Below are positions 13,306 to 37,698 of a stretch of DNA of 64,000 nt, in pieces. Numbering within the stretch: the stretch's first letter is position 1; every line of letters starts with the position of its first letter. Source of the DNA: Candidatus Sulfopaludibacter sp. SbA3 (lineage in GTDB: Bacteria > Acidobacteriota > Terriglobia > Bryobacterales > Bryobacteraceae); assembly GCA_945890485.1 (NCBI GenBank), contig CAMDCN010000012.1, forward strand, positions 1-64,000, written 5' to 3'. Both the position numbers and the translations under genes were made by a program. The notes under the pieces are model-generated. The model had not been told where the DNA came from. It saw only the letters and a list, made by a program, of their open reading frames with translations, and searched no databases.

Positions 13306-13360
13306 TTGGGAACGGCAGAGTGGGAGAAAATCAGGATGAAGAGTGAATAGGAGCGATCGA

Positions 13361-16010: not shown

Positions 16011-19000
16011 ATGCCGGCTTCGGTCAGACTTTCGATAGGCGCGTTGGCGCTTACATTTATCGCGACTGCGAATGCAGCGCCGACCAGTAGGAACCTACGC
16101 AGTGGGAGTTTGGATGGCAAGGCTATCCTTTCGCCGGAAGCGGTTCGGGCGGCGCAAACGAGCGTGGGAGATTTGCCCCATCGTTTTGAGGAAAACCGCG
16201 GCCAGTTCGCCCCGGAAGTGCGGTACGCCGCACGGGCCAATGGTTACGAGATGTACCTGACCGACACGGAAACGGTGATGGTGCTTTACAAGGCGCGCGG
16301 ACGCGAGCCTAAAGACGGTATGGACTACACCACTTTGCGTATGTCCATTCGGGGAGCGCGGCCGGCGAAGGGTTGGGAGCAAGGCAAGCAGGTGGCCGGT
16401 GTCTCCAATTACTTCCTGGGCAAGGATCCTTCGAGTTGGCGGCGGAACGTTCCTGCGTACGAGTCTGTCACGGCGAAGCAGGTTCAGCCGGGGGTGGACT
16501 TGGTTTGGTACGGGAAAGACCGGAAGCTGGAATATGACCTGGTGGTGGCGCCGGGAGTGGACCCTTCAATGTTGGAAGTGGCCTGGAATGGCGCACGTTC
16601 TATGAAAGTGGACGACGCGGGAAACCTGGTACTCGATACCGCGTTCGGGCAGGTGGTGCAGCAGCGACCCTTCGTATACCAGATGGTGAACGGTAAGCAG
16701 GTGAAGATCGAGGCAAGATACTCGCTGCAGCCCAATGCCGGCGCGCGATTTGAACTCGCCCGGTATGACCGCACCAAGCCCCTGGTAATTGACCCCGCGG
16801 TGATGGTGTACTCGACATTTCTGGGGACCCAGCCGACTTCGGGCCGGTCGGTGTTTGCTGACGCAGCCGGAAACGTCTACCTGTTGGGCCAGAGCTTCTC
16901 GCCGACGTTTCCCTTTGTGACGCCGTTCCGTTCCAGCCAGGCGTTGGGCGAAATCTACTTGGCGAAGTTCAACCCGGCAGGAACGGCGTTGATCTACGCG
17001 ACATATTTGGGCGGAAGCGCCGACGATGCGCCCTATGCCTTGGCGGTGGATGGCGCGGGCTCGGCTTATGTACTCGGAAGCAGCCGTTCGACTGACTTCC
17101 CATTGAAAACGCCGATCCAGAGCACGTTGAACTCGACGAATCCCCTTTCCGGCGACACGACGATCACGAAATTCACGCCGGCCGGAAATGACATCACCTA
17201 CTCGACCTACTTTGGCGGTACCAATGGCACGCTGCCCGGATCTTTGAGTTTGGCCCCGGATGGCGGTGTGTACTTCGCGACCTATCTGAGCGGCACGCTC
17301 ACGGTGACGCCTTCTCCCCTGGTGCTGAACCCTTCGTCCGCCCGCGCCATCGTCGCTAAGATCCGGCCGGCTGGCAACTCCTTCGAATGGCTCACGGCGC
17401 TTGGCGATATCGTGGTGGCGGACCTGACTTCCGACGCGACGGGCGTCTACTTTGGCGGCGACAACCGTTCTGGCCGCCCGGCCTATCCGTCAGTCAGCGC
17501 CCCACCCGGCTTGGTGCAGGGCCGCAGCGATGACGGCGTCGTTGGTAAGTTGAACCCAACCGGAACGGCCTTACTGTACTACACCCATTTTGGGGGCAAC
17601 CAGTATGATCAGATTGACGCGATCACGGTAGACAGCACCGGAGCCCTCTATGTCGGAGGAACGACGAAATCGCCGGATCTCCCATTGCAGAATCCTCTGC
17701 GGTCGTATGTAGCTCCCATCGGCGGGGCCAACTTCCAGGACGGTTTCGTGGCGAAGCTTGCGCCAGCCGGCAATAGCATCACCTACTCGACCTATATCGG
17801 CGGTTCCGGAGACGATTTCATTTTCGACATAGCCATCGATAGTGCGGGCGGAGTGGCCCTGGTTGGCAACACGTATTCCACTGACATTCCGCAGGTGGAG
17901 TCCTTGCAAACCACATCGCTTGGCCAACAGGAGGCTTTTATTATGAAGTTGAAGCCTGCCGGCAACGGCCTGGATTTCTCCACCTATCTGGGCGGCACCG
18001 GCGCCGACCTCGGCTACAGCATTTTCTCTGGAACGGGAGGAGCCCTTTACGTCACGGGTGTGACTGCCGGCACCGCGTTCCCGACCGTGAATGCGTTCCA
18101 ATCGGCGCAGCCCGGCGGATTTATCGCGTTCCTCACGAAATACACCGTCACGGCACCGTCGCAGACGCCCACCGTAACGGCCCTTAGCCCGATTGCGACG
18201 TCCGGCACGCAGCAGACGTTTACCTTCTCGTTTGCCGACCCGGACGGCGCCGCCGATCTAGGGGTGGTGAACGTGTTGATCAACAACTTCCTGAACGGCG
18301 CAGGCGCCTGCTACATAGCCTACGACCGTCCGAGCAATTTCCTCTTCCTCGTAAACGATGCGGGCAATGATCTGACGGCGTTGGCGTTGAACGGTTCGGG
18401 AACGACGTCGAACAGCCAGTGCACGATTGTGGGTGCGGGCTCCTCGGCGACGGTGAGCGGGAACACGTTGACGCTGACCCTGGTTGTTCAGTTCAACACG
18501 ACCACGTTTTCCGGCCGCAAGGTGGTTTACATGGCGGCTCGCGACACGCTGCAGAACAACTCCGGCTGGCAGCCGATGGGCACGTATTCGGTAGGCTCGA
18601 CACCGGCGGCGAACCCGATGGTGGTCAGCCTCACGCCGAATTCGGGCAGCGGCAACAGTGCAACGCTGAGCATTACGTATCGGGACGCGACGGCCGGGGG
18701 CAATATCCAGGCCAGTCAGGTTCTGATTAACAGTGCGCTCGACGGCGCGAATGGCTGCTACATGGGCTTCGACAACGCCAGCAATGTGCTGTATCTGTTA
18801 ACCAATGCCGGCAATGACCTGCTGGTTCCGGGTATCGTCCCTGGAGGCGCCTCCGGATTTACAGAGAACAGCCAGTGCCGGGTGGATGCCGTGGGCTCGT
18901 CGCGGACCATCTCCGGCAACACCATGACGCTCACCGTGAAGTTGACGTTCAAGACCCCGTTCAACGGGCGCAAGATCGTCTACGGCGGTGTGCAAACCAC

Positions 19001-19052
19001 GACCGGCGGCAACAGCGGCTGGCATGCCATGGGGGCGTGGGTAGTCCAGTAG
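16011..19052 (+). CDS. Large secreted SBBP-repeat beta-propeller protein with duplicated C-terminal domain
   Basis: Protein of 1013 residues with a signal peptide (first about 23 residues, ending ATANA-A). The N-terminal domain starts FEENRGQFAPEVRYAARANG and is typical of SBBP proteins. Repeats of the form YLGGSADD / ITYSTYIGG / AVDGAGSAYVLGSS follow (about 260-710), building a propeller. The C-terminus has two copies of a domain of about 145 residues (about 718-865 and 868-1013), both with GCY or ACY and a final SGW-MG motif. Probably extracellular; ligand unknown. Abundant in Solibacter-like genomes. Confidence 0.9.
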   Translation: MPASVRLSIGALALTFIATANAAPTSRNLRSGSLDGKAILSPEAVRAAQTSVGDLPHRFEENRGQFAPEVRYAARANGYEMYLTDTETVMVLYKARGREPKDGMDYTTLRMSIRGARPAKGWEQGKQVAGVSNYFLGKDPSSWRRNVPAYESVTAKQVQPGVDLVWYGKDRKLEYDLVVAPGVDPSMLEVAWNGARSMKVDDAGNLVLDTAFGQVVQQRPFVYQMVNGKQVKIEARYSLQPNAGARFELARYDRTKPLVIDPAVMVYSTFLGTQPTSGRSVFADAAGNVYLLGQSFSPTFPFVTPFRSSQALGEIYLAKFNPAGTALIYATYLGGSADDAPYALAVDGAGSAYVLGSSRSTDFPLKTPIQSTLNSTNPLSGDTTITKFTPAGNDITYSTYFGGTNGTLPGSLSLAPDGGVYFATYLSGTLTVTPSPLVLNPSSARAIVAKIRPAGNSFEWLTALGDIVVADLTSDATGVYFGGDNRSGRPAYPSVSAPPGLVQGRSDDGVVGKLNPTGTALLYYTHFGGNQYDQIDAITVDSTGALYVGGTTKSPDLPLQNPLRSYVAPIGGANFQDGFVAKLAPAGNSITYSTYIGGSGDDFIFDIAIDSAGGVALVGNTYSTDIPQVESLQTTSLGQQEAFIMKLKPAGNGLDFSTYLGGTGADLGYSIFSGTGGALYVTGVTAGTAFPTVNAFQSAQPGGFIAFLTKYTVTAPSQTPTVTALSPIATSGTQQTFTFSFADPDGAADLGVVNVLINNFLNGAGACYIAYDRPSNFLFLVNDAGNDLTALALNGSGTTSNSQCTIVGAGSSATVSGNTLTLTLVVQFNTTTFSGRKVVYMAARDTLQNNSGWQPMGTYSVGSTPAANPMVVSLTPNSGSGNSATLSITYRDATAGGNIQASQVLINSALDGANGCYMGFDNASNVLYLLTNAGNDLLVPGIVPGGASGFTENSQCRVDAVGSSRTISGNTMTLTVKLTFKTPFNGRKIVYGGVQTTTGGNSGWHAMGAWVVQ

Positions 19053-24246: not shown

Positions 24247-24980
24247 AGGCTGCGCAGGTGAAAGCCGCCATCGACATTCAGCACTTGGCCCGTCGAATAG
24301 TCGAGCAATCCATCGGCGATGCCGCGCACGGCTTTCGCGATATCTGACGTTTCGCCCATCCGGCGCTGCGGCAGCAAGCCGTTGGCGATCTTTTCTTCGT
24401 ACACCGACTCGACGGCCGAGATCATGTCGGTGCGGATGATGCCCGGACGGATTTCGAACACCTTGATTCCCTTCTCCGCCAGACGAGTCGCATAGAGCGA
24501 AACGGACATCGCCAAGCCGGCTTTCGAAATGCAGTAGTCCGCGCGATTCACGGAAGCGGTATAGGCCGAAATCGAAGTGACAAACACGATGCGGCCATCG
24601 CCCTGCTCCGCCATCCAGTTCGCGGCGGCCTGAGTGAGAAAGTGGGGGCCCTTCAAGTTGGTATTGATGAGTTCGTCGAAGCTCTCCTCGGAAGCCGCCA
24701 GCATGTCCTGGCGAACGCGGGGAGCCATGCCGGCGTTGTTGACGAGCAGGTCGAGCCGGCCGAACTTCTCGCGCGTGAAGGCAAGAAGCCGGGCGCGGTC
24801 TTCGCCGTTGCCGATGTCGGTTTGAATGATCTCGGCGCCGGTTTCCGCGCGGAGGCTTTCGGCGGCGTCCAAGCGACCGCGGTAAGTAGCCACCAGGGAA
24901 TGGGTCTTGGCCAGTTCGAGGGCGATGCCCCGGCCAATGCCGCGGCTGGCGCCAGTGATGAGGGCGACGGGTTTGCTCAT
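24243..24980 (-). CDS. Short-chain dehydrogenase/reductase (FabG-like)
   Basis: NAD(P)H-dependent SDR of 245 residues. It has the cofactor motif [14 protein letters not shown], catalytic Ser in VTSISAY, and the [10 protein letters not shown] Tyr-x3-Lys pair. The C-terminus [11 protein letters not shown] is typical of 3-oxoacyl-ACP-reductase-like members. It is last in a minus run whose start overlaps the DsbA-like stop by 4 bp (ATGA). Substrate unknown. Confidence 0.93.
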
Positions 24981-25387
24981 TGCGAATCCTGGATCGCGGC
25001 GATCAACTCGTCGGCGGTGAAGTGCTCGACGAGGACGTGATTGCCTACGAAAACGGTGGGTGTTTTGGCGACGCCGCGCGCGTGGGCGTCCGCAAGGTCG
25101 GCATCGACGCCGCCATGGTCCCGCCCAGCCACGGGGGCGTGAACCCTACCCAGCGAAAGCAAGCACCTCTTGCGCCACTCCCACTCGGCGGTCCGGCCCT
25201 CGGTCGCACGGAGATGTTGGGCTTCGGCGGCCAGACTCATCGCCTCGGGATGCTTGACGAGGGGAAAGTCCCGACGGACAAACTCCACCTCATCGCCGAG
25301 CACCGGGATGAGCTTCTCTTCAAGCATGTGCTGCAACCGGGTGCAGTCGGGACACTGGAGGTCCTCAAAGATCTCGACGGTAACCAC
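24977..25387 (-). CDS. DsbA-like thioredoxin-fold protein, compact
   Basis: Protein of 136 residues with the redox motif CPDC near the start ([15 protein letters not shown]), then [13 protein letters not shown] and the cis-Pro loop [10 protein letters not shown]. No signal peptide is present from the chosen GTG (25385-25387), 7 bp after the previous stop. Compared with related DsbA-type proteins, about 25-40 residues of the helical insert between WEWRKRCLL and VDADLADAH seem to be missing, without frame loss. An upstream in-frame extension to 25588 overlaps the DUF697-like gene and looks spurious. Confidence 0.78.
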
Positions 25388-25394
25388 TCGACTA

Positions 25395-26288
25395 TTATGC
25401 GGTTTTCTTGAAACGCTGGAGTAGATTGGTGACCACGGTCTTGCCTTTCGAAATGCCTTCGTCGTAGAGATGCTCCCGTTCGTCACGGGAAAGCTGCCCG
25501 CCAAAGCTGTACAGCTTCTGCAGGCCACGGCCAACGATCCACGTGCCCGCGTAGGCCACCGTGGCCTTGCTGACGACCCCGGCGCCAAATGGCACCTTGC
25601 TGATCAGTTGCCGCGCGAGCGAGCGCCAGCCGAAGGCTCCCGCGATCACGGAGGCTACCTGTGTTTTCTGCTCCCGATAGCCGATTGGCCGGTCATTCGC
25701 GCCCGCCAACAGGAAGGCCATGCGGAGCTGATTGGCCGTGATGAAGGCCGTGTCGCTAGCGAACTCGCCCACGGCAAATGGGAGCGAGAGGATGTTCGGC
25801 ACGATGTTCGGCAGCGATGTCGCGACAGAGAAAAGCGCATTTTCCTGGCTGACGGTGTTGATGATCTTTTCCGTAACCGGCTTCCGAAACACTACGAAGT
25901 GCCTTGAAAGCGGCAAGCCCAGTTCCTCGCGCTTGTCGATGATTTCCTGCACGGTACGTTCTGGATCTCGCTTGTAGAACGTGAACGCCTGCGGAGGCTT
26001 CGATAGCCCCTCTTCCCAGAGCTCAATATCGAGATGCGCCGGCGGCTCGGGCATGCCCGGCAGGCGCGGGCCCATGGGATGGACGAACCGCACCAATTCG
26101 TTTTTCTTGCTCTCGGAGAGCCGCTGCGGGGCCAGGAAATCCCACATGCGGTTCAGCCCATCCTCGGTCATCGCGGTCAAGCCGATATTCACTTCCCGCT
26201 CGGCCATTTCCCGCACATCACTCGGATTCAGGCTGCGGATGGACTTTGCGACGGTGGTCAAAAAAGAAGTGATCATTAGGTTGCTCAT
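25395..26288 (-). CDS. DUF697-like membrane-associated protein
   Basis: Protein of 297 residues. The C-terminal part (about 195-297) holds hydrophobic helices SVIAGAFGWRSLARQLISKV and SKATVAYAGTWIVGRGLQKL, resembling the DUF697 module found in YcjF-like and GTPase-linked proteins. The N-terminal half is helical (LNPSDVREMAEREVNIGL). The ATG at 26286-26288 overlaps the preceding stop (ATGA), strongly supporting this start. Function unknown. Confidence 0.7.
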   Translation of the reverse strand: MSNLMITSFLTTVAKSIRSLNPSDVREMAEREVNIGLTAMTEDGLNRMWDFLAPQRLSESKKNELVRFVHPMGPRLPGMPEPPAHLDIELWEEGLSKPPQAFTFYKRDPERTVQEIIDKREELGLPLSRHFVVFRKPVTEKIINTVSQENALFSVATSLPNIVPNILSLPFAVGEFASDTAFITANQLRMAFLLAGANDRPIGYREQKTQVASVIAGAFGWRSLARQLISKVPFGAGVVSKATVAYAGTWIVGRGLQKLYSFGGQLSRDEREHLYDEGISKGKTVVTNLLQRFKKTA

Positions 26289-30193: not shown

Positions 30194-30757
30194 GTGACAA
30201 GAGACGAAGCTTGGAAGATCGTTTGTGAATTTGTGCAGTCCGACGGATTGCGGAAACATATGCTCGCCGTCGAGGCCTGCATGGTGGCCTACGCCCGCCA
30301 ACAGGGCGGCGACGAGGAGGCCTACGCCGTCACTGGCCTGCTCCATGATTTCGACTGGGAGATTCATCCGAACCTGCCGGACCACCCCACCAAAGGCGAA
30401 GCCATCCTCGAAGCCCGTGGCGTTTCCGCCGAAATCCGCCGGGCGATCCTGTCGCACGCCGACTTCACCGGCGTCCCCCGCGAATCGCAGATGGAGAAGA
30501 CCCTCTTCGCCTGCGACGAACTCGCCGGCTTTCTCACCGCCTGCTCCTACGTCCGACCCAGCCGCAGCATCCACGAGGTCGACGTGAAGTCCGTGCGCAA
30601 AAAGCTGAAAGACAAAGCCTTCGCCCGCGCCGTCAACCGGGATGACGTCCTCAACGGCGCAGCCGAACTCGGCGTGGACCTCGATGCCCACATCGAATTC
30701 TGCATCCGCGCCATGCGCGACCGGGCGGAGTTGCTAGGATTGCAAGGAACGGTTTAA
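30194..30757 (+). CDS. HD-domain phosphohydrolase
   Basis: Cytosolic metal-dependent phosphohydrolase-fold protein of 187 residues. It has the opening helix SDGLRKHMLAVEACM with the first His, LLHDFDWEIHPN with the His-Asp pair, and ILSHADFTGVPRES, then CDELAGFLTACSYVRPS, all typical of this HD subgroup. Start is GTG 30194 with GAGGAG upstream. It sits between two tRNA genes; substrate unknown. Confidence 0.9.
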   Translation: MTRDEAWKIVCEFVQSDGLRKHMLAVEACMVAYARQQGGDEEAYAVTGLLHDFDWEIHPNLPDHPTKGEAILEARGVSAEIRRAILSHADFTGVPRESQMEKTLFACDELAGFLTACSYVRPSRSIHEVDVKSVRKKLKDKAFARAVNRDDVLNGAAELGVDLDAHIEFCIRAMRDRAELLGLQGTV

Positions 30758-30761
30758 TCGC

Positions 30762-30856
30762 GGAAGCCACGCTTGGCCGGTGCTGGGCCTGGTCTTCAAA
30801 ACCAGTGTGCGTCGCGTAAGCGGCGCGGTGGGTTCGACTCCCACTGGCTTCCGCCA
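30762..30856 (+). tRNA. selC: Selenocysteine tRNA (UCA anticodon)
   Basis: 95-nt tRNA. The acceptor stem has 8 bp (GGAAGCCA with TGGCTTCC), the D stem 6 bp (GCTTGG with CTGGGC), and the anticodon loop CTTCAAA carries TCA inside CTGGT/ACCAG. A long variable arm pairs TGCGTCGC with GCGGCGCG around GTAA. The T arm GTGGG-TTCGACT-CCCAC is followed by G-CCA. The 8+5 bp acceptor/T extension, 6-bp D stem and GGAAG...CTTCCGCCA ends match bacterial tRNA-Sec rather than a suppressor tRNA-Ser. It implies UGA decoding as Sec; no selA, selB, selD or obvious selenoprotein is in the window. Confidence 0.95.
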
Positions 30857-30870
30857 TCCTCTCCCCCTCT

Positions 30871-31617
30871 GTGCCCGACCTCCCTCTTTGGAAATGGCTC
30901 CTTGGCGCCGCCTGCGCCTTCTCAATCGGCGTCGCCAAGACCGGCGTTCCCGGATTGGGCATTCTCGCCGTGCCCCTATTCGTGTTTACGGTTGACGATG
31001 CGCGCCTCTCGGCCGCGTGGCTGCTGCCGCTGCTGATCGTCGCCGACTGCTACGCCGTCATCACCTACCGCAAGCAAGCCGCCGCCAACGCCCTCTTTTC
31101 GCTGCTGCCCTGGGTGATGGCCGGCATGGCCGCGGGCGCCGCCGTCCTCGTCTATCCCGACGCGGTCATCCGGCCGTTGGTCGGCGCTATCACGCTTTCG
31201 ATGCTGTTGCTCTTCCTCTGGCGGCTACGCTACGCCAGCGGGCCGCCGCCCACCGGGTGGTGGTTTTCCGGCTTTTTCGGCACCTCGGCGGGCTTCGCGA
31301 CGATGGTTGCCAACGCCGCCGGCCCCATCATGAACATCTACCTGCTCTCGCGGAAACTACCGCGCGAAGAGTTCGTCGCCACCGGCGCCTGGTTCTTCTT
31401 CTTCGTGAACCTCAGCAAAGTGCCGGTCTATTCGATGCACGGGCTCTTCAGCCAGCAGGGCCTGCTCTACGATGCCGTGCTGGTCATCCCCACGCTCGCC
31501 GGCGCGATGGTGGGGCGCAAACTGATCTCCCGCATTCCGGAAAAGGCCTTCCTGACCGCGGTCATCGTGCTCGCGTTCGTGGCGACGATTCTATTGTTCC
31601 TCCCCCCGCGGCATTAA
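30871..31617 (+). CDS. TauE/SafE family membrane exporter
   Basis: Inner-membrane protein of 248 residues with about seven to eight helices. The repeat motif GVAKTGVPGLGILAVPLF opens it, with its inverted counterpart near GFFGTSAGFATMVANAAGPI. Family members export sulfite or organosulfur anions or move thiosulfate. The GTG start at 30871 gives the expected N-terminus (MPDLPLWKWLLGAAC) but lies just 15 nt after the tRNA-Sec CCA, leaving no room for a usual leader. Its 3' end overlaps the convergent sulfatase by 4 bp. Confidence 0.9.
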   Translation: MPDLPLWKWLLGAACAFSIGVAKTGVPGLGILAVPLFVFTVDDARLSAAWLLPLLIVADCYAVITYRKQAAANALFSLLPWVMAGMAAGAAVLVYPDAVIRPLVGAITLSMLLLFLWRLRYASGPPPTGWWFSGFFGTSAGFATMVANAAGPIMNIYLLSRKLPREEFVATGAWFFFFVNLSKVPVYSMHGLFSQQGLLYDAVLVIPTLAGAMVGRKLISRIPEKAFLTAVIVLAFVATILLFLPPRH

Positions 31618-33029: not shown

Positions 33030-33071
33030 TTACGGCACCAGAAAGCCTTGATCATACGTCAGAATCATTAC

Positions 33072-34421
33072 ATGAGTCGTTGGCTGACCAAATTTTGGCC
33101 CAGTTTACGAAAGGGCACGGCAAGAATTTGGCGGCGCTTCTTTCTTCCGTGGATGCGGCCAATTCACGGCGCGTTTCCCTTAACGCGCACCGGCGTGGCC
33201 TTTCTTATTTTGTTCGCACTGGCGGTTTGGTTTCAAGGGGTTCTGCATCTCGATCTGGTTCTGCTCGTAGCTGGGCTGGCGGGGATCCTGGTGGTCGCCT
33301 CCCTGCTCCTCTGTACCTTTATTGGCGCGGCCTATCTGACTTGGAGCTCTAAACGGGCACGGACGCCCGGATTGCTCGACCTCGAAACGAAAACGCCCCA
33401 ACCGACCGGTTACCGAGTTCGCTACCCGCGGTGGATCCCGTTCACGCTCGCCCAATGGCAGTGGGTCGACGATGGGAACGGCGAGACGGCCGCGAACATC
33501 ACTATTGAACGCCAAGGCGGGGAGTTCATCGAAATGGCCGCGCCGCAGCGGCGCTGTATTGTTCAGCGTGTCGTTCGGCGCTTCGCCGTCCGCGATCTTT
33601 TTGGCCTTTCCGAAATCGCGTGGCGCCGCGCGGAAACAGTCAGCCTGCGCGTGCTGCCCGAGCGCGGCATGCTGGCACAGATGCCACCACCTGCCGGCAT
33701 GGCCGACGGCGATGACCTCTCCGATGTTTATGCTGAGCCGCGCGGAGACAGGGTGGAGATGCGGCAGTATGCCCCCGGCGACCCGTTGCGAATGGTGCTT
33801 TGGAAGGTATACGCCCGGACAAACCGGATGATGGTGCGGACGCCGGAACGCAGCGTCGCCGAGCGGCGCAAGGGTTGCGCGTATCTGGTGGCGAGCGCCA
33901 ACGATGACGCCACCGCTGCAGTAGCGCGCATCGCGATCGAGCGCGGACTGCTGGGCGACGACTGGTGTTTCGCCGCTGACGGCGTCGACCGGCATGCCAC
34001 CGAAAGAGAAGAGGCGCTCGAAATTCTCGCCCGCAGCGGCGAGGCCGACACCGCCGAGCGGGATGGCAATTTGGGAGCATTCCTTTCCAAGATGGAAAAC
34101 GAAGGGTACCAATTCTGCATTTTGCTCCTCCCCCCGGAAGCAGACGCCTGGGCGCACGCCGCAACGCAGGTGACGGGTACCGGCATTATGCGGATGCAGA
34201 TCCTCACCGGGGTCGAAGCGGTGCAGCCAGAAGAGGAAGCGAGCCCCGCATGGAAGGACCGCCTTACCAAATGGTTTCTCCGTCCGGCTGTTGACGACGA
34301 ATATACGCTCGAAGAACTGCGGCAATTTGCCATCGGTTCGGCTGGGCTGGCCACATCGGCTGGCGTGGCCGAGCGGCGAACCGGCCACCTGTTCCAGGAT
34401 ATCCTCGGAGGTAGGGGCTAA
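33072..34421 (+). CDS. DUF58 family protein
   Basis: Protein of 449 residues from the ATG at 33072. Two transmembrane segments occur near residues 38-80, then a cytoplasmic or periplasmic domain with the DUF58 hallmark EMRQYAPGDPLRMVLWKVYA around residue 230. DUF58 proteins accompany MoxR ATPases and transglutaminase proteins in a widespread, poorly understood unit. The stop is directly followed by the transglutaminase gene ATG, indicating one transcript. Confidence 0.92.
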   Translation: MSRWLTKFWPSLRKGTARIWRRFFLPWMRPIHGAFPLTRTGVAFLILFALAVWFQGVLHLDLVLLVAGLAGILVVASLLLCTFIGAAYLTWSSKRARTPGLLDLETKTPQPTGYRVRYPRWIPFTLAQWQWVDDGNGETAANITIERQGGEFIEMAAPQRRCIVQRVVRRFAVRDLFGLSEIAWRRAETVSLRVLPERGMLAQMPPPAGMADGDDLSDVYAEPRGDRVEMRQYAPGDPLRMVLWKVYARTNRMMVRTPERSVAERRKGCAYLVASANDDATAAVARIAIERGLLGDDWCFAADGVDRHATEREEALEILARSGEADTAERDGNLGAFLSKMENEGYQFCILLLPPEADAWAHAATQVTGTGIMRMQILTGVEAVQPEEEASPAWKDRLTKWFLRPAVDDEYTLEELRQFAIGSAGLATSAGVAERRTGHLFQDILGGRG

Positions 34422-36626
34422 ATGACGTCGCGCAATTCGATCTGGTGGAAGCTGCCCGGCGTGGTGATATGGATGACCGCGGTGGGGCTGCTCGCGGCCG
34501 GCTATACGTCCGGTTTCGGCCTGTTCTTCGCTTTGCTTGGGGTCGTCGCGGCGTTCGCTCTGGCTGGCAGCCTAGAGGCGCTGCCCATCCGGCTAAGCCG
34601 GGTCTGGCTGGTAGCGGCTGGGGCGATGGGGATAACGATTGGCATCAGTTGGTTCCTTCGCGGCAATAGCAGCGTCGTGAGCCTGCTGGGGAGCGAGGTG
34701 GTCTACGCCATCACGGAAGCCGAGAACTGGTTCATGGGCGTGCTCTGCTGGCTCGCCCCCGTACTGCTGTCCGCCCGGCGCTACTCGATGTTTCTGACTC
34801 TCGAGGCCGCATCGCTCGTTGGCATCTTTTCCAGTGTTCTCGCCGCCCACCGCGACGGTTCTATTCATCGACCCTTCTTCCTGACCGATTGGCTGCTCGA
34901 GCGAAACTATGATCCCATGCCGTTCTTCCTTGGCGCGGGAGCCCTGCTTGGCATTCTCCTGGTTGTCTGGATGCTCAGCCGGAGTTCGGCCAAGCGGACC
35001 CTGCTTGATCCCGCGCTGCTCATCGCCATGATTGTGGCGCTCTTCCTGTTCCTCCCGGACGGAAAACTGCGCCAGCTTTCGGCGTTCGCAGGCGGCGCCG
35101 GCGGCAGCGAGAAAGATAAGAAGGAACAACAGCACCACGGCGGCCAAGGCGGCAAAGGCGAAGAGAAACAGGATCAAGGCCAGAATCAGGACCCGAATCC
35201 GTCGAGCGGCGAGGGGCGCAAGAGCTTCCCGGTCGCTGTGGTCAGTCTTCATGACGACTATCAGCCGCCCTATGGCACCTTCTATTTCCGCCAGGACACG
35301 CTCAGCAATTACAACGGCCGCCGCCTGGTCCGTGACGCCTCCGGCAAGCTGGATACCGACGTCGGCATGCCCTTCCCCGCCGAGCCGATTGAAGTTCCGT
35401 TGCGCGACCGCGCCGATGTCGCCAAGGGCGGCAAGGAGCGCCTCGCCCATCGCCTCCGCACCACGGTCGCGTTGATGACGCCCCATTCCAAGCCCTTCGG
35501 CCTGATCGATGTCGCCAAGTTGGAACCGGCTCCGAACCCGGACGCGAAGCGTTTTGAACGCGCCTACAAAGTGGAATCCATCGTCCTCGATGCCGACTTC
35601 GGTACCCTGCTCAACCGCTCCCTCGGCTCCGAAAATTGGACCCCCGAGATGTGGCATCACTATACCGACGTGCCCGAAGATGGACGTTACCGCGAGATCG
35701 CCGAACAGGCCAAGCTACTTCTCCCGGCCCACCTGCGCGGCATTCCCATTGCGCAAGCGCTGGCGATCAAGTTCTGGATGGACAAGAACACCACCTACAA
35801 CCTGAACGTGCCGCAGGTGGACGAAGATGCCGACCCCGTCGCCAGCTTCCTGTTCGGCGACCGCAACGGCTACTGTGTCCATCTGGCGCATTCCGCCGTC
35901 TACCTCTTCCGTACTCTCGGCGTGCCGGCACGGGTCAGCGTGGGTTACGCAGTCGGTTCTCGCCAGCGCGGCGACGGCTCCACGATTCTGATCCGCAATG
36001 GCGACGCGCACGCATGGCCCGAAGTCTATGTCCGTGACCTCGGTTGGGTGGTGCTCGACATCACTCCGGAGAAGGTCATCACCCCGCCGCAGGAAGAAAA
36101 GGTGGATCAGGATCTGCAGCGGATGCTGGGCGAAATGGCCCGCCAGACTCCGGGATCGCCCAAGGAAGAGAATCCGCCGGCCGGCGACGGCGACCTGCGC
36201 AAAGCGCTCGCCGAAGCGTTGCAGGGCCTGAGCAAGGCGATGGTTCCGGTGATCCTCTTTACTTTGCTCGCGCTTTATCTCATGAAGTTCTGGCGCCGCA
36301 TGGAACCGCGTTTCTGCAGCCCGTCCAGGCTGCCGGTCGCCTCCTACCGAGCCACGCTCGATTCGCTCGCCGATCTCGGCTTTTACCGCGACTACGGCAC
36401 CTCCCGCGAAGCATTCGCCAAGCGGCTTGCCCCGCAAGCGCCCGAAATGGTCGACCTGACGAACCTGCATATGCAGGCGGCGCTGGGCGCGGCCGTGCCC
36501 AAGGTGGGCCGCGAAAAGTATCTGGCCCTCTCGGCGGCAGTTGCCCGCCAGGCCGGCCAAGGCATTCAATGGTGGCGCCGTGTGCTCGGCGTCCTGCATC
36601 CGCTCTCCTGGTGGAAAGTCTCGTAG
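34422..36626 (+). CDS. Membrane transglutaminase-like protein (TgpA-like)
   Basis: Protein of 734 residues. N-terminal part has about six transmembrane helices (to about residue 215), then a Lys/Gln/Gly-rich linker and a periplasmic transglutaminase-like domain. The catalytic triad is visible: Cys485 (GYCVHLAHSAVYLFR), His530 (DAHAWPEVYV) and Asp546 (VVLDITPE). Another transmembrane helix lies near residue 608, followed by a C-terminal cytosolic tail. Expected to act on envelope peptides or proteins. Between DUF58 and MoxR genes. Confidence 0.93.
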   Translation: MTSRNSIWWKLPGVVIWMTAVGLLAAGYTSGFGLFFALLGVVAAFALAGSLEALPIRLSRVWLVAAGAMGITIGISWFLRGNSSVVSLLGSEVVYAITEAENWFMGVLCWLAPVLLSARRYSMFLTLEAASLVGIFSSVLAAHRDGSIHRPFFLTDWLLERNYDPMPFFLGAGALLGILLVVWMLSRSSAKRTLLDPALLIAMIVALFLFLPDGKLRQLSAFAGGAGGSEKDKKEQQHHGGQGGKGEEKQDQGQNQDPNPSSGEGRKSFPVAVVSLHDDYQPPYGTFYFRQDTLSNYNGRRLVRDASGKLDTDVGMPFPAEPIEVPLRDRADVAKGGKERLAHRLRTTVALMTPHSKPFGLIDVAKLEPAPNPDAKRFERAYKVESIVLDADFGTLLNRSLGSENWTPEMWHHYTDVPEDGRYREIAEQAKLLLPAHLRGIPIAQALAIKFWMDKNTTYNLNVPQVDEDADPVASFLFGDRNGYCVHLAHSAVYLFRTLGVPARVSVGYAVGSRQRGDGSTILIRNGDAHAWPEVYVRDLGWVVLDITPEKVITPPQEEKVDQDLQRMLGEMARQTPGSPKEENPPAGDGDLRKALAEALQGLSKAMVPVILFTLLALYLMKFWRRMEPRFCSPSRLPVASYRATLDSLADLGFYRDYGTSREAFAKRLAPQAPEMVDLTNLHMQAALGAAVPKVGREKYLALSAAVARQAGQGIQWWRRVLGVLHPLSWWKVS

Positions 36627-36645
36627 CGCTGAAAGTCTCGTAAAC

Positions 36646-37698
36646 ATGGATCCCTCAACCACTCCCGCCCCTCATCCCTTAACCCCGGCCGCCGAAGTCG
36701 CTCGTGTTCTCGGCAGCCGTTTGCGCGCCGCGATCAAGGGCCGCGACGAGGTCATCAACCTCATCCTGACGGCGCTCTTTGCCGACGGCCATGTCCTGCT
36801 CGAGGATTATCCCGGCTCCGGCAAGACGACTCTTGCCAAGGCTCTTGGCGAGTCAATCACAGACCCTAACGGCAACCACATCGCCGCCTTCCGGCGCGTC
36901 CAGTTCACGCCCGATCTGCTGCCCAGCGACATCACCGGCGTCAGCATCTTCGATCCCCCTACCGGCCGCTTCGAGTTCCGCCCGGGCCCCATCTTCGCCC
37001 ACGTCCTGCTCGCCGACGAGATCAACCGCACCTCACCCAAGGTGCAATCCGCGATGCTCGAATCGATGGCCGAAAAGCAGGTGACGGTCGACAACGTCAC
37101 TTACCCGCTCGATCAGCTCTTCTTCGTCATCGCCACCCAGAACCCGCGCGACCTGGCCGGCACCTATCCGCTCCCCGTCGCGCAGCTCGACCGGTTTCTG
37201 TTCAAAATCAACATGGACTACATTGATCGCGAGTCCGAGGTCGAGGTGCTCAACACCCGCCGCGAACGCCGGTCCGCTCCGTCCGGTCGGCTGGTCAGCC
37301 GCGATGAGGTCATCGTCGCCCGGCAGTTGATCGAGCAGTATGTCTACGTCCACCCGCTCATCAACCACTGTCTGGTCGACACCGCGCGTAACCTGCGTTC
37401 CCACAAGAAAGTCCTTCAGGGGCTCAGCACCCGCAGCCTCGTCCTGATGATCCCGGCTCTGCAGTCGATGGCGATGCTGGCGGGCCGCGACTACGTATCT
37501 CCTCAGGACATCCACTACCTGGCCCCTTACGTCTTCGGCCATCGGCTCGTCATCGCACCCGGCGCCGGCGACATGAAGAAGGTCGTGCACGAATGTCTGG
37601 CCGAGCCGCTCGAGCACCTCACGCGGATGACGCTGGCCGGCCAATCGCCGGTTCCCGCGCCGCCCGCCGATAATTTCCCCGCCGGTCCCGTTAACTAA
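36646..37698 (+). CDS. MoxR-type AAA+ ATPase
   Basis: ATPase of 350 residues from ATG 36646. Walker A is [15 protein letters not shown] with Lys60; Walker B and flanks read [20 protein letters not shown]; sensor region [20 protein letters not shown] is typical of MoxR. It is the chaperone-like member of the DUF58/transglutaminase unit. The stop overlaps the next ATG (TAATG). A longer in-frame start at 36541 would overlap the transglutaminase gene by 86 bp and is less likely. Confidence 0.95.

Follow-up and report, generated by a model that had tools for sequence, protein, structure and literature searches.

A bacterial-type selenocysteine tRNA gene in an acidobacterium carrying the rest of the selenocysteine machinery

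In bacteria, the selenocysteine (Sec) pathway begins with the charging of tRNA-Sec with serine by SerRS, after which SelA, with selenophosphate supplied by SelD, turns the serine into Sec, and SelB brings the Sec-tRNA to UGA codons followed by a SECIS hairpin. The tRNA itself is distinctive: the available text of one account of the bacterial form (PMC5330540) gives it an 8/5 fold, a 6-bp D-stem, a 4-nt D-loop, a UCA anticodon, a long variable arm, G73 and a length of 90-101 nt. All of these are shared by the tRNA gene described here, which lies in a 64-kb stretch of acidobacterial DNA (the window); relative to the form in those parts of PMC5330540 and in the Rfam family RF01852 it differs in sequence alone, three of its six D-stem pairs being wobble pairs.

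The use of Sec in this phylum has been in print since 2006: the portion of PMC1794560 available to us lists Acidobacteria with three selenoprotein families and four selenoproteins, and that of PMC12013277 credits the acidobacterium Occallatibacter riparius with three known selenoprotein genes. The genome studied here has the same Sec trait in the same phylum and is another genome, which makes the finding sound but ordinary. Among the selenoprotein families named in the accessible sections of PMC9312934 and PMC13188914 are SelD, FdhA, the Prx-like thiol:disulfide oxidoreductases (UxxC) and DUF3179 (UxxC/T).

The tRNA gene and its fold

The gene occupies 30762-30856 on the plus strand (95 nt with its encoded CCA), a span that ARAGORN calls exactly, as tRNA-SeC with anticodon tca, and to which RF01852 (tRNA-Sec) and covariation across 26 distinct sequences also point. 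An Rfam cmscan places RF01852 at 30762-30852 (70.6 bits, E 2.1e-12), over the gathering score of 47. In a whole-genome search in which 150 of 1376 first-look candidates were scored, the window copy was the one match above the gathering score; nine further matches listed in the same genome reach at most 45.4 bits, and other anticodons could be read from the letters of seven of these nine.

Read from the sequence, the 8-bp acceptor stem pairs 30762-30769 with 30845-30852 (GGAAGCCA/UGGCUUCC). The D arm (30772-30787) has a 6-bp stem, CUUGGC/GCUGGG, joining 30772-30777 to 30782-30787 around a 4-nt loop; its three wobble pairs are largely common to the relatives. The anticodon arm (30789-30805) combines a 5-bp stem with the loop CUUCAAA, in which UCA lies at 30796-30798. 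It is followed by a variable arm at 30808-30827, with 7 bp and an outer U-G pair (8 bp if the latter is counted), and by a T arm at 30828-30844, whose 5-bp stem GUGGG/CCCAC gives, together with the acceptor stem, the bacterial 8/5 fold. The discriminator G73 (30853) and the encoded CCA, both invariant in the 27 aligned sequences, complete the gene at 30853-30856. The full bacterial set is therefore present, namely the RF01852 score, the 13-bp acceptor-T (8/5) stem, the 6-bp D-stem with 4-nt loop, UCA and G73. The initial annotation had described this pattern (8-bp acceptor, 6-bp D stem, UCA, 8-bp variable arm) and proposed scoring the segment with a tRNA-Sec covariance model: ARAGORN, RF01852 and the sequence itself bear out the description, and the model score is high.

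The fold was also assessed in a MAFFT alignment of 27 sequences: our own and 26 of the 30 best-scoring RF01852 loci of the family, which were taken by score with no random draw. The other four (L071, L073, L075 and L079), which have longer variable arms, were excluded before alignment, so that 27 of 31 sequences were used. Across the 26 distinct rows, own included, 96.8% of the 805 stem cells are paired, and structures slid along the alignment pair just 30-48% against this figure in register; changes on both sides are seen in 16 of 31 pairs, a number reached by 0 of 500 shuffles (mean 6.5). Pairing is 100% in the acceptor (helix 1), anticodon (helix 3) and T (helix 5) stems and 99.4% in the D-stem (helix 2). 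The weakest helix is the variable arm (helix 4) at 86.2%, partly because our own sequence is shifted there by one column in the MAFFT alignment. In the acceptor stem both sides have changed in three of eight pairs, the eighth included (AU in 22 of the 26 distinct rows, CG in 3, UA in 1). The Rfam model has a ninth acceptor pair, which is a non-standard pair in the window copy. Folded singly, the window tRNA has a minimum free energy (MFE) of -48.9 kcal/mol (z -3.2; equalled or bettered by 3 of 200 shuffles). This MFE fold departs from 8/5, with seven pairs in the acceptor stem and six in the T stem; it also has a seventh D pair, and the inner 7 pairs of the variable arm are present. The covariation supports the eighth acceptor pair and favours 8/5 over the 7/6 of the MFE fold.

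Sec machinery and selenoprotein genes in the genome

The genome (G000; 7.13 Mb in 35 contigs, 97.43% complete) has one match each above cut-off for selA (TIGR00474; G000:C6:120733-121944; 455.9 bits, cut-off 267.9), selB (TIGR00475; G000:C2:554157-555968; 378.8 bits, cut-off 242.25) and selD (TIGR00476; G000:C9:111412-112320; 354.9 bits, cut-off 125), on three contigs other than that of the tRNA. The selA and selB matches are free of stops, and the only stop in selD is one in-frame UGA. SelU/YbbB (TIGR03167), which belongs to the 2-selenouridine trait, was not found in this genome (best score 21.7 bits, cut-off 219.75), so that SelD most likely serves Sec.

Four likely selenoprotein genes were recognized through family searches and de novo scans. 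The TGA of SelD lies in the context GUASKLSPKVL, presumably where the E. coli enzyme has its catalytic Cys. Formate dehydrogenase-N alpha, a molybdopterin oxidoreductase (C6:76899-79736), contains a single TGA (context RLUHGPTV) and, read through the UGA, scores 1299.6 bits with TIGR01553 (cut-off 814.2). The third is a Prx-like UxxC protein on the minus strand (G000:C1:617421-619010; 17421-19010 of tile L166), with the context SADWUPYCKTQ and 75.8 bits with PF00578, and the fourth a DUF3179 UxxC protein, with the context ATYUTLCHTG and 209.6 bits with PF11376. In NCBIfam the Prx-like protein has sub-cut-off matches alone, and the DUF3179 protein none. All four belong to families named in the accessible sections of PMC9312934 and PMC13188914, with the UxxC motif in the Prx-like and DUF3179 proteins, and in those sections of PMC13188914 the N-terminal loop of SelD has Sec as its catalytic residue. 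The Prx-like protein differs from the family as presented there in its extra domains: its frame runs from PF06439 (3-keto-disaccharide hydrolase) through a Sec-containing AhpC/TSA domain (UxxC) to DsbD_N. That this fusion is an undescribed selenoprotein architecture, one that would couple redox chemistry at the cell envelope to the breakdown of sugars, is a speculative and rather doubtful proposal; we found no literature joining selenoproteins to DUF1080, in a search whose coverage misses most subscription journals.

DUF3179 was found in 20 of the 61 family genomes searched, in 23 rows, of which 13 have one TGA, one has a TAA and nine have no stop, the place of the TGA having been read for our own copy alone. 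In the relative G009, the UGA site is occupied by Cys (YCTLC vs YUTLC). A TAA inside the G009 match suggested that UAA might encode Sec; this was rejected, given the Cys at the UGA site and an ordinary tRNA-Sec with UCA anticodon called by ARAGORN.

Three de novo scans for in-frame TGA codons covered 2.84 Mb (39.8% of the genome), the window included, and yielded 33, 9 and 27 candidates, which were sorted on the residues flanking each TGA. The formate dehydrogenase, Prx-like and DUF3179 genes were retained from all three lists, and SelD appears in the list of 27 only: its Sec lies near the N-terminus and the other two scans missed it, so that similar genes may have been missed too. From their residue context, the remaining candidates were judged to be noise or adjacent genes that share a frame. 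Within the 64-kb window no convincing selenoprotein was found; two of the scans gave no candidates there, and the sole candidate of the third, a TGA at 13337, was read as lying just before the start of another gene.

All four UGAs are followed by a SECIS-like hairpin with a stem of 7-8 bp; the loop begins 15-21 nt downstream, and G occurs among the first two loop bases. The hairpin criterion (6 bp or more, 14-24 nt) was set after the four UGAs had been seen and holds for 3894 of 69639 TGA triplets in the scanned DNA (5.6%); being chosen post hoc, it provides supporting rather than independent evidence. The genome thus has SelA, SelB, SelD and at least one in-frame UGA gene with a predicted SECIS-like hairpin, that is, the complete bacterial Sec-decoding trait. 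From the tRNA the initial annotation had deduced such an apparatus, and it had proposed a search of the genome for selA, selB, selD and a Sec-containing formate dehydrogenase or other selenoproteins: the three sel genes are present, together with a likely Sec-type formate dehydrogenase gene. Its statement that no gene in the window is broken by TGA agrees with the three scans, and the selenoproteins that it placed elsewhere in the genome have likely counterparts in the four genes above.

Distribution across the family

In a sample of 150 genomes of the family, our own included, a match of at least 60 bits was taken as tRNA-Sec and a match above cut-off as SelD; the 60-bit line was drawn after a 53.8-bit match in G096 had been read from its letters as a tRNA-Leu. 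By these measures tRNA-Sec is present in 117 genomes and SelD in 131, with both in 110, the tRNA only in 7, SelD only in 21 and neither in 12 (Fisher p 3.5e-5, with genomes counted as independent and kinship ignored). One TGA is present in 108 of the 131 SelD rows and none in 23, at least two of the latter being matches that do not include the N-terminal part. SelA is above cut-off in 15 of the 33 genomes with no tRNA-Sec at 60 bits, and 10 of the 150 have no tRNA-Sec (60 bits or more), SelD or SelA above cut-off, nine of these ten being at least 91% complete.

A re-search with laxer filters of 32 genomes below 60 bits (12 of them with no SelD above cut-off), in which 94 first-look candidates per genome were scored vs 26 in the first family search, gave scores that stayed below the tRNA-Sec level; 20 of the 21 SelD-only genomes were included, without gain. 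A pattern of UCA anticodon and T-loop matched 4 of 26 genomes: the controls G000 and G148, plus G104 and G147, where the sequence picked out is unlike a tRNA. In G148, the twenty-first SelD-only genome, the pattern match is truncated by the start of a contig; the RF01852 match in this genome has 58.5 bits. Gaps in the MAGs and the partial scoring of candidates likely explain the SelD-only genomes, and a variant tRNA-Sec in SelD-bearing genomes below the 60-bit line is a lead.

Several further observations concern individual genomes. In 8 of the 16 SelA-bearing genomes with no 60-bit tRNA-Sec (the 15 above cut-off and G006, where selA is in two pieces), selA lies at most about 1 kb from a contig start (G057, G077, G053, G114, G010, G062, G147 and G006), and the tRNA-Sec may lie beyond the contig break. 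Two RF01852 matches above 60 bits were seen in each of G133 (C93 and C99; 73.9 and 64.3 bits) and G140 (C223 and C96; 71.5 and 62.6 bits), the second being either a second tRNA-Sec, another tRNA or assembly contamination. In genus g24, three genomes (G024, G089 and G119) have no tRNA-Sec at 60 bits and no SelA or SelD above cut-off; a fourth, G139, likewise has no 60-bit tRNA-Sec but carries SelA and a SelD with a TGA.

Neighbouring genes, rival readings and significance

The tRNA gene is flanked on the same strand by a gene for an HD/HDIG-domain protein (30194-30757; TIGR00277, PF01966), which ends 4 nt before it and is probably co-transcribed with it, and by a TauE/SafE permease gene (30871-31617; PF01925, 90.3 bits), which follows after a gap of 14 nt. 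Among the matches listed, the HD gene has its nearest named relatives in MAGs of Acidobacteria, several of which bear a Bryobacterales or Bryobacteraceae label, with which the earlier guess of a Solibacter-like lineage is compatible. The same orientation and tight spacing might suggest that the three genes form a selenium-uptake operon. Gene order in the relatives lends this little support: an HD homologue adjoins tRNA-Sec in 6 of the 30 relatives' loci and a TauE homologue in 0 of 30 (flanks of up to 1.5 kb), and in the best 80 of 562 confirmed HD-homologue loci tRNA-Sec is in the flank of just 11 (within 55 nt in seven) and a TauE homologue in two, both from the nearest kin, with HD proteins 93-94% identical. 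With the neighbourhood so poorly conserved, the operon is rejected as very unlikely, and we regard the permease as a neighbour with at most a putative link to the Sec system.

Elsewhere in the window, genes for DUF58, transglutaminase-core and AAA ATPase proteins stand in a row at 33048-37698 (plus strand), presumably a common cluster type. On the minus strand, 24977-25588 encodes a Thioredoxin_4/DsbA-like protein of Cys type (CPDC), with the match covering residues 69-123 of 203; a frameshift possibly lies behind the uncovered later part.

Two other readings concern the tRNA itself. Long-armed tRNAs other than tRNA-Sec do reach about 54 bits with RF01852, as the tRNA-Leu of G096 illustrates, and a serine or leucine tRNA of type 2, or a suppressor tRNA that reads UGA, might be miscalled in this way. 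Such an error is hardly credible for a gene that has 70.6 bits, far above the other nine matches listed in its genome, along with the 8-bp acceptor, the 6-bp D-stem with 4-nt loop, UCA and G73, in a genome with selA, selB and selD. That the gene is a decayed or unused tRNA-Sec, remaining after loss of the trait, has a parallel in the ten family genomes from which the trait looks lost; it is extremely unlikely in view of selA and selB being free of stops, the single UGA of selD, the four Sec-type UGAs with their hairpins and the paired stems of the tRNA. The points that count against a functional tRNA-Sec are the 21 of 131 SelD-bearing genomes below the 60-bit line, the 7/6 MFE fold and the three D-stem wobbles.

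We therefore regard the window gene as almost certainly selC, encoding the tRNA by which selenocysteine is incorporated at particular UGA codons. The basis for this comprises the tRNA, the three sel genes, in-frame UGAs within family homology, the hairpins and the co-occurrence of tRNA-Sec and SelD. From these we infer how the Sec system would be expressed and operate: SerRS would charge the tRNA with serine, SelA would convert the Ser to Sec with selenophosphate from SelD, and SelB would deliver the Sec-tRNA to the UGAs preceding SECIS-like hairpins. The likely products, if expressed as predicted, are SelD itself, formate dehydrogenase-N alpha, the Prx-like UxxC redox protein and the DUF3179 protein.

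The gene is thus a normal bacterial tRNA-Sec gene in an acidobacterium that carries the rest of the Sec machinery, and it leaves the general picture of Sec use unchanged. It indicates that this genome decodes some UGA as Sec, so that an annotation treating every UGA as a stop would truncate the formate dehydrogenase-N alpha, SelD, DUF3179 and Prx-like genes. In the sampled family the Sec trait is widespread (110 of 150 genomes) and seemingly missing from some lineages, and this patchiness makes the family usable for studying the gain and loss of the trait.
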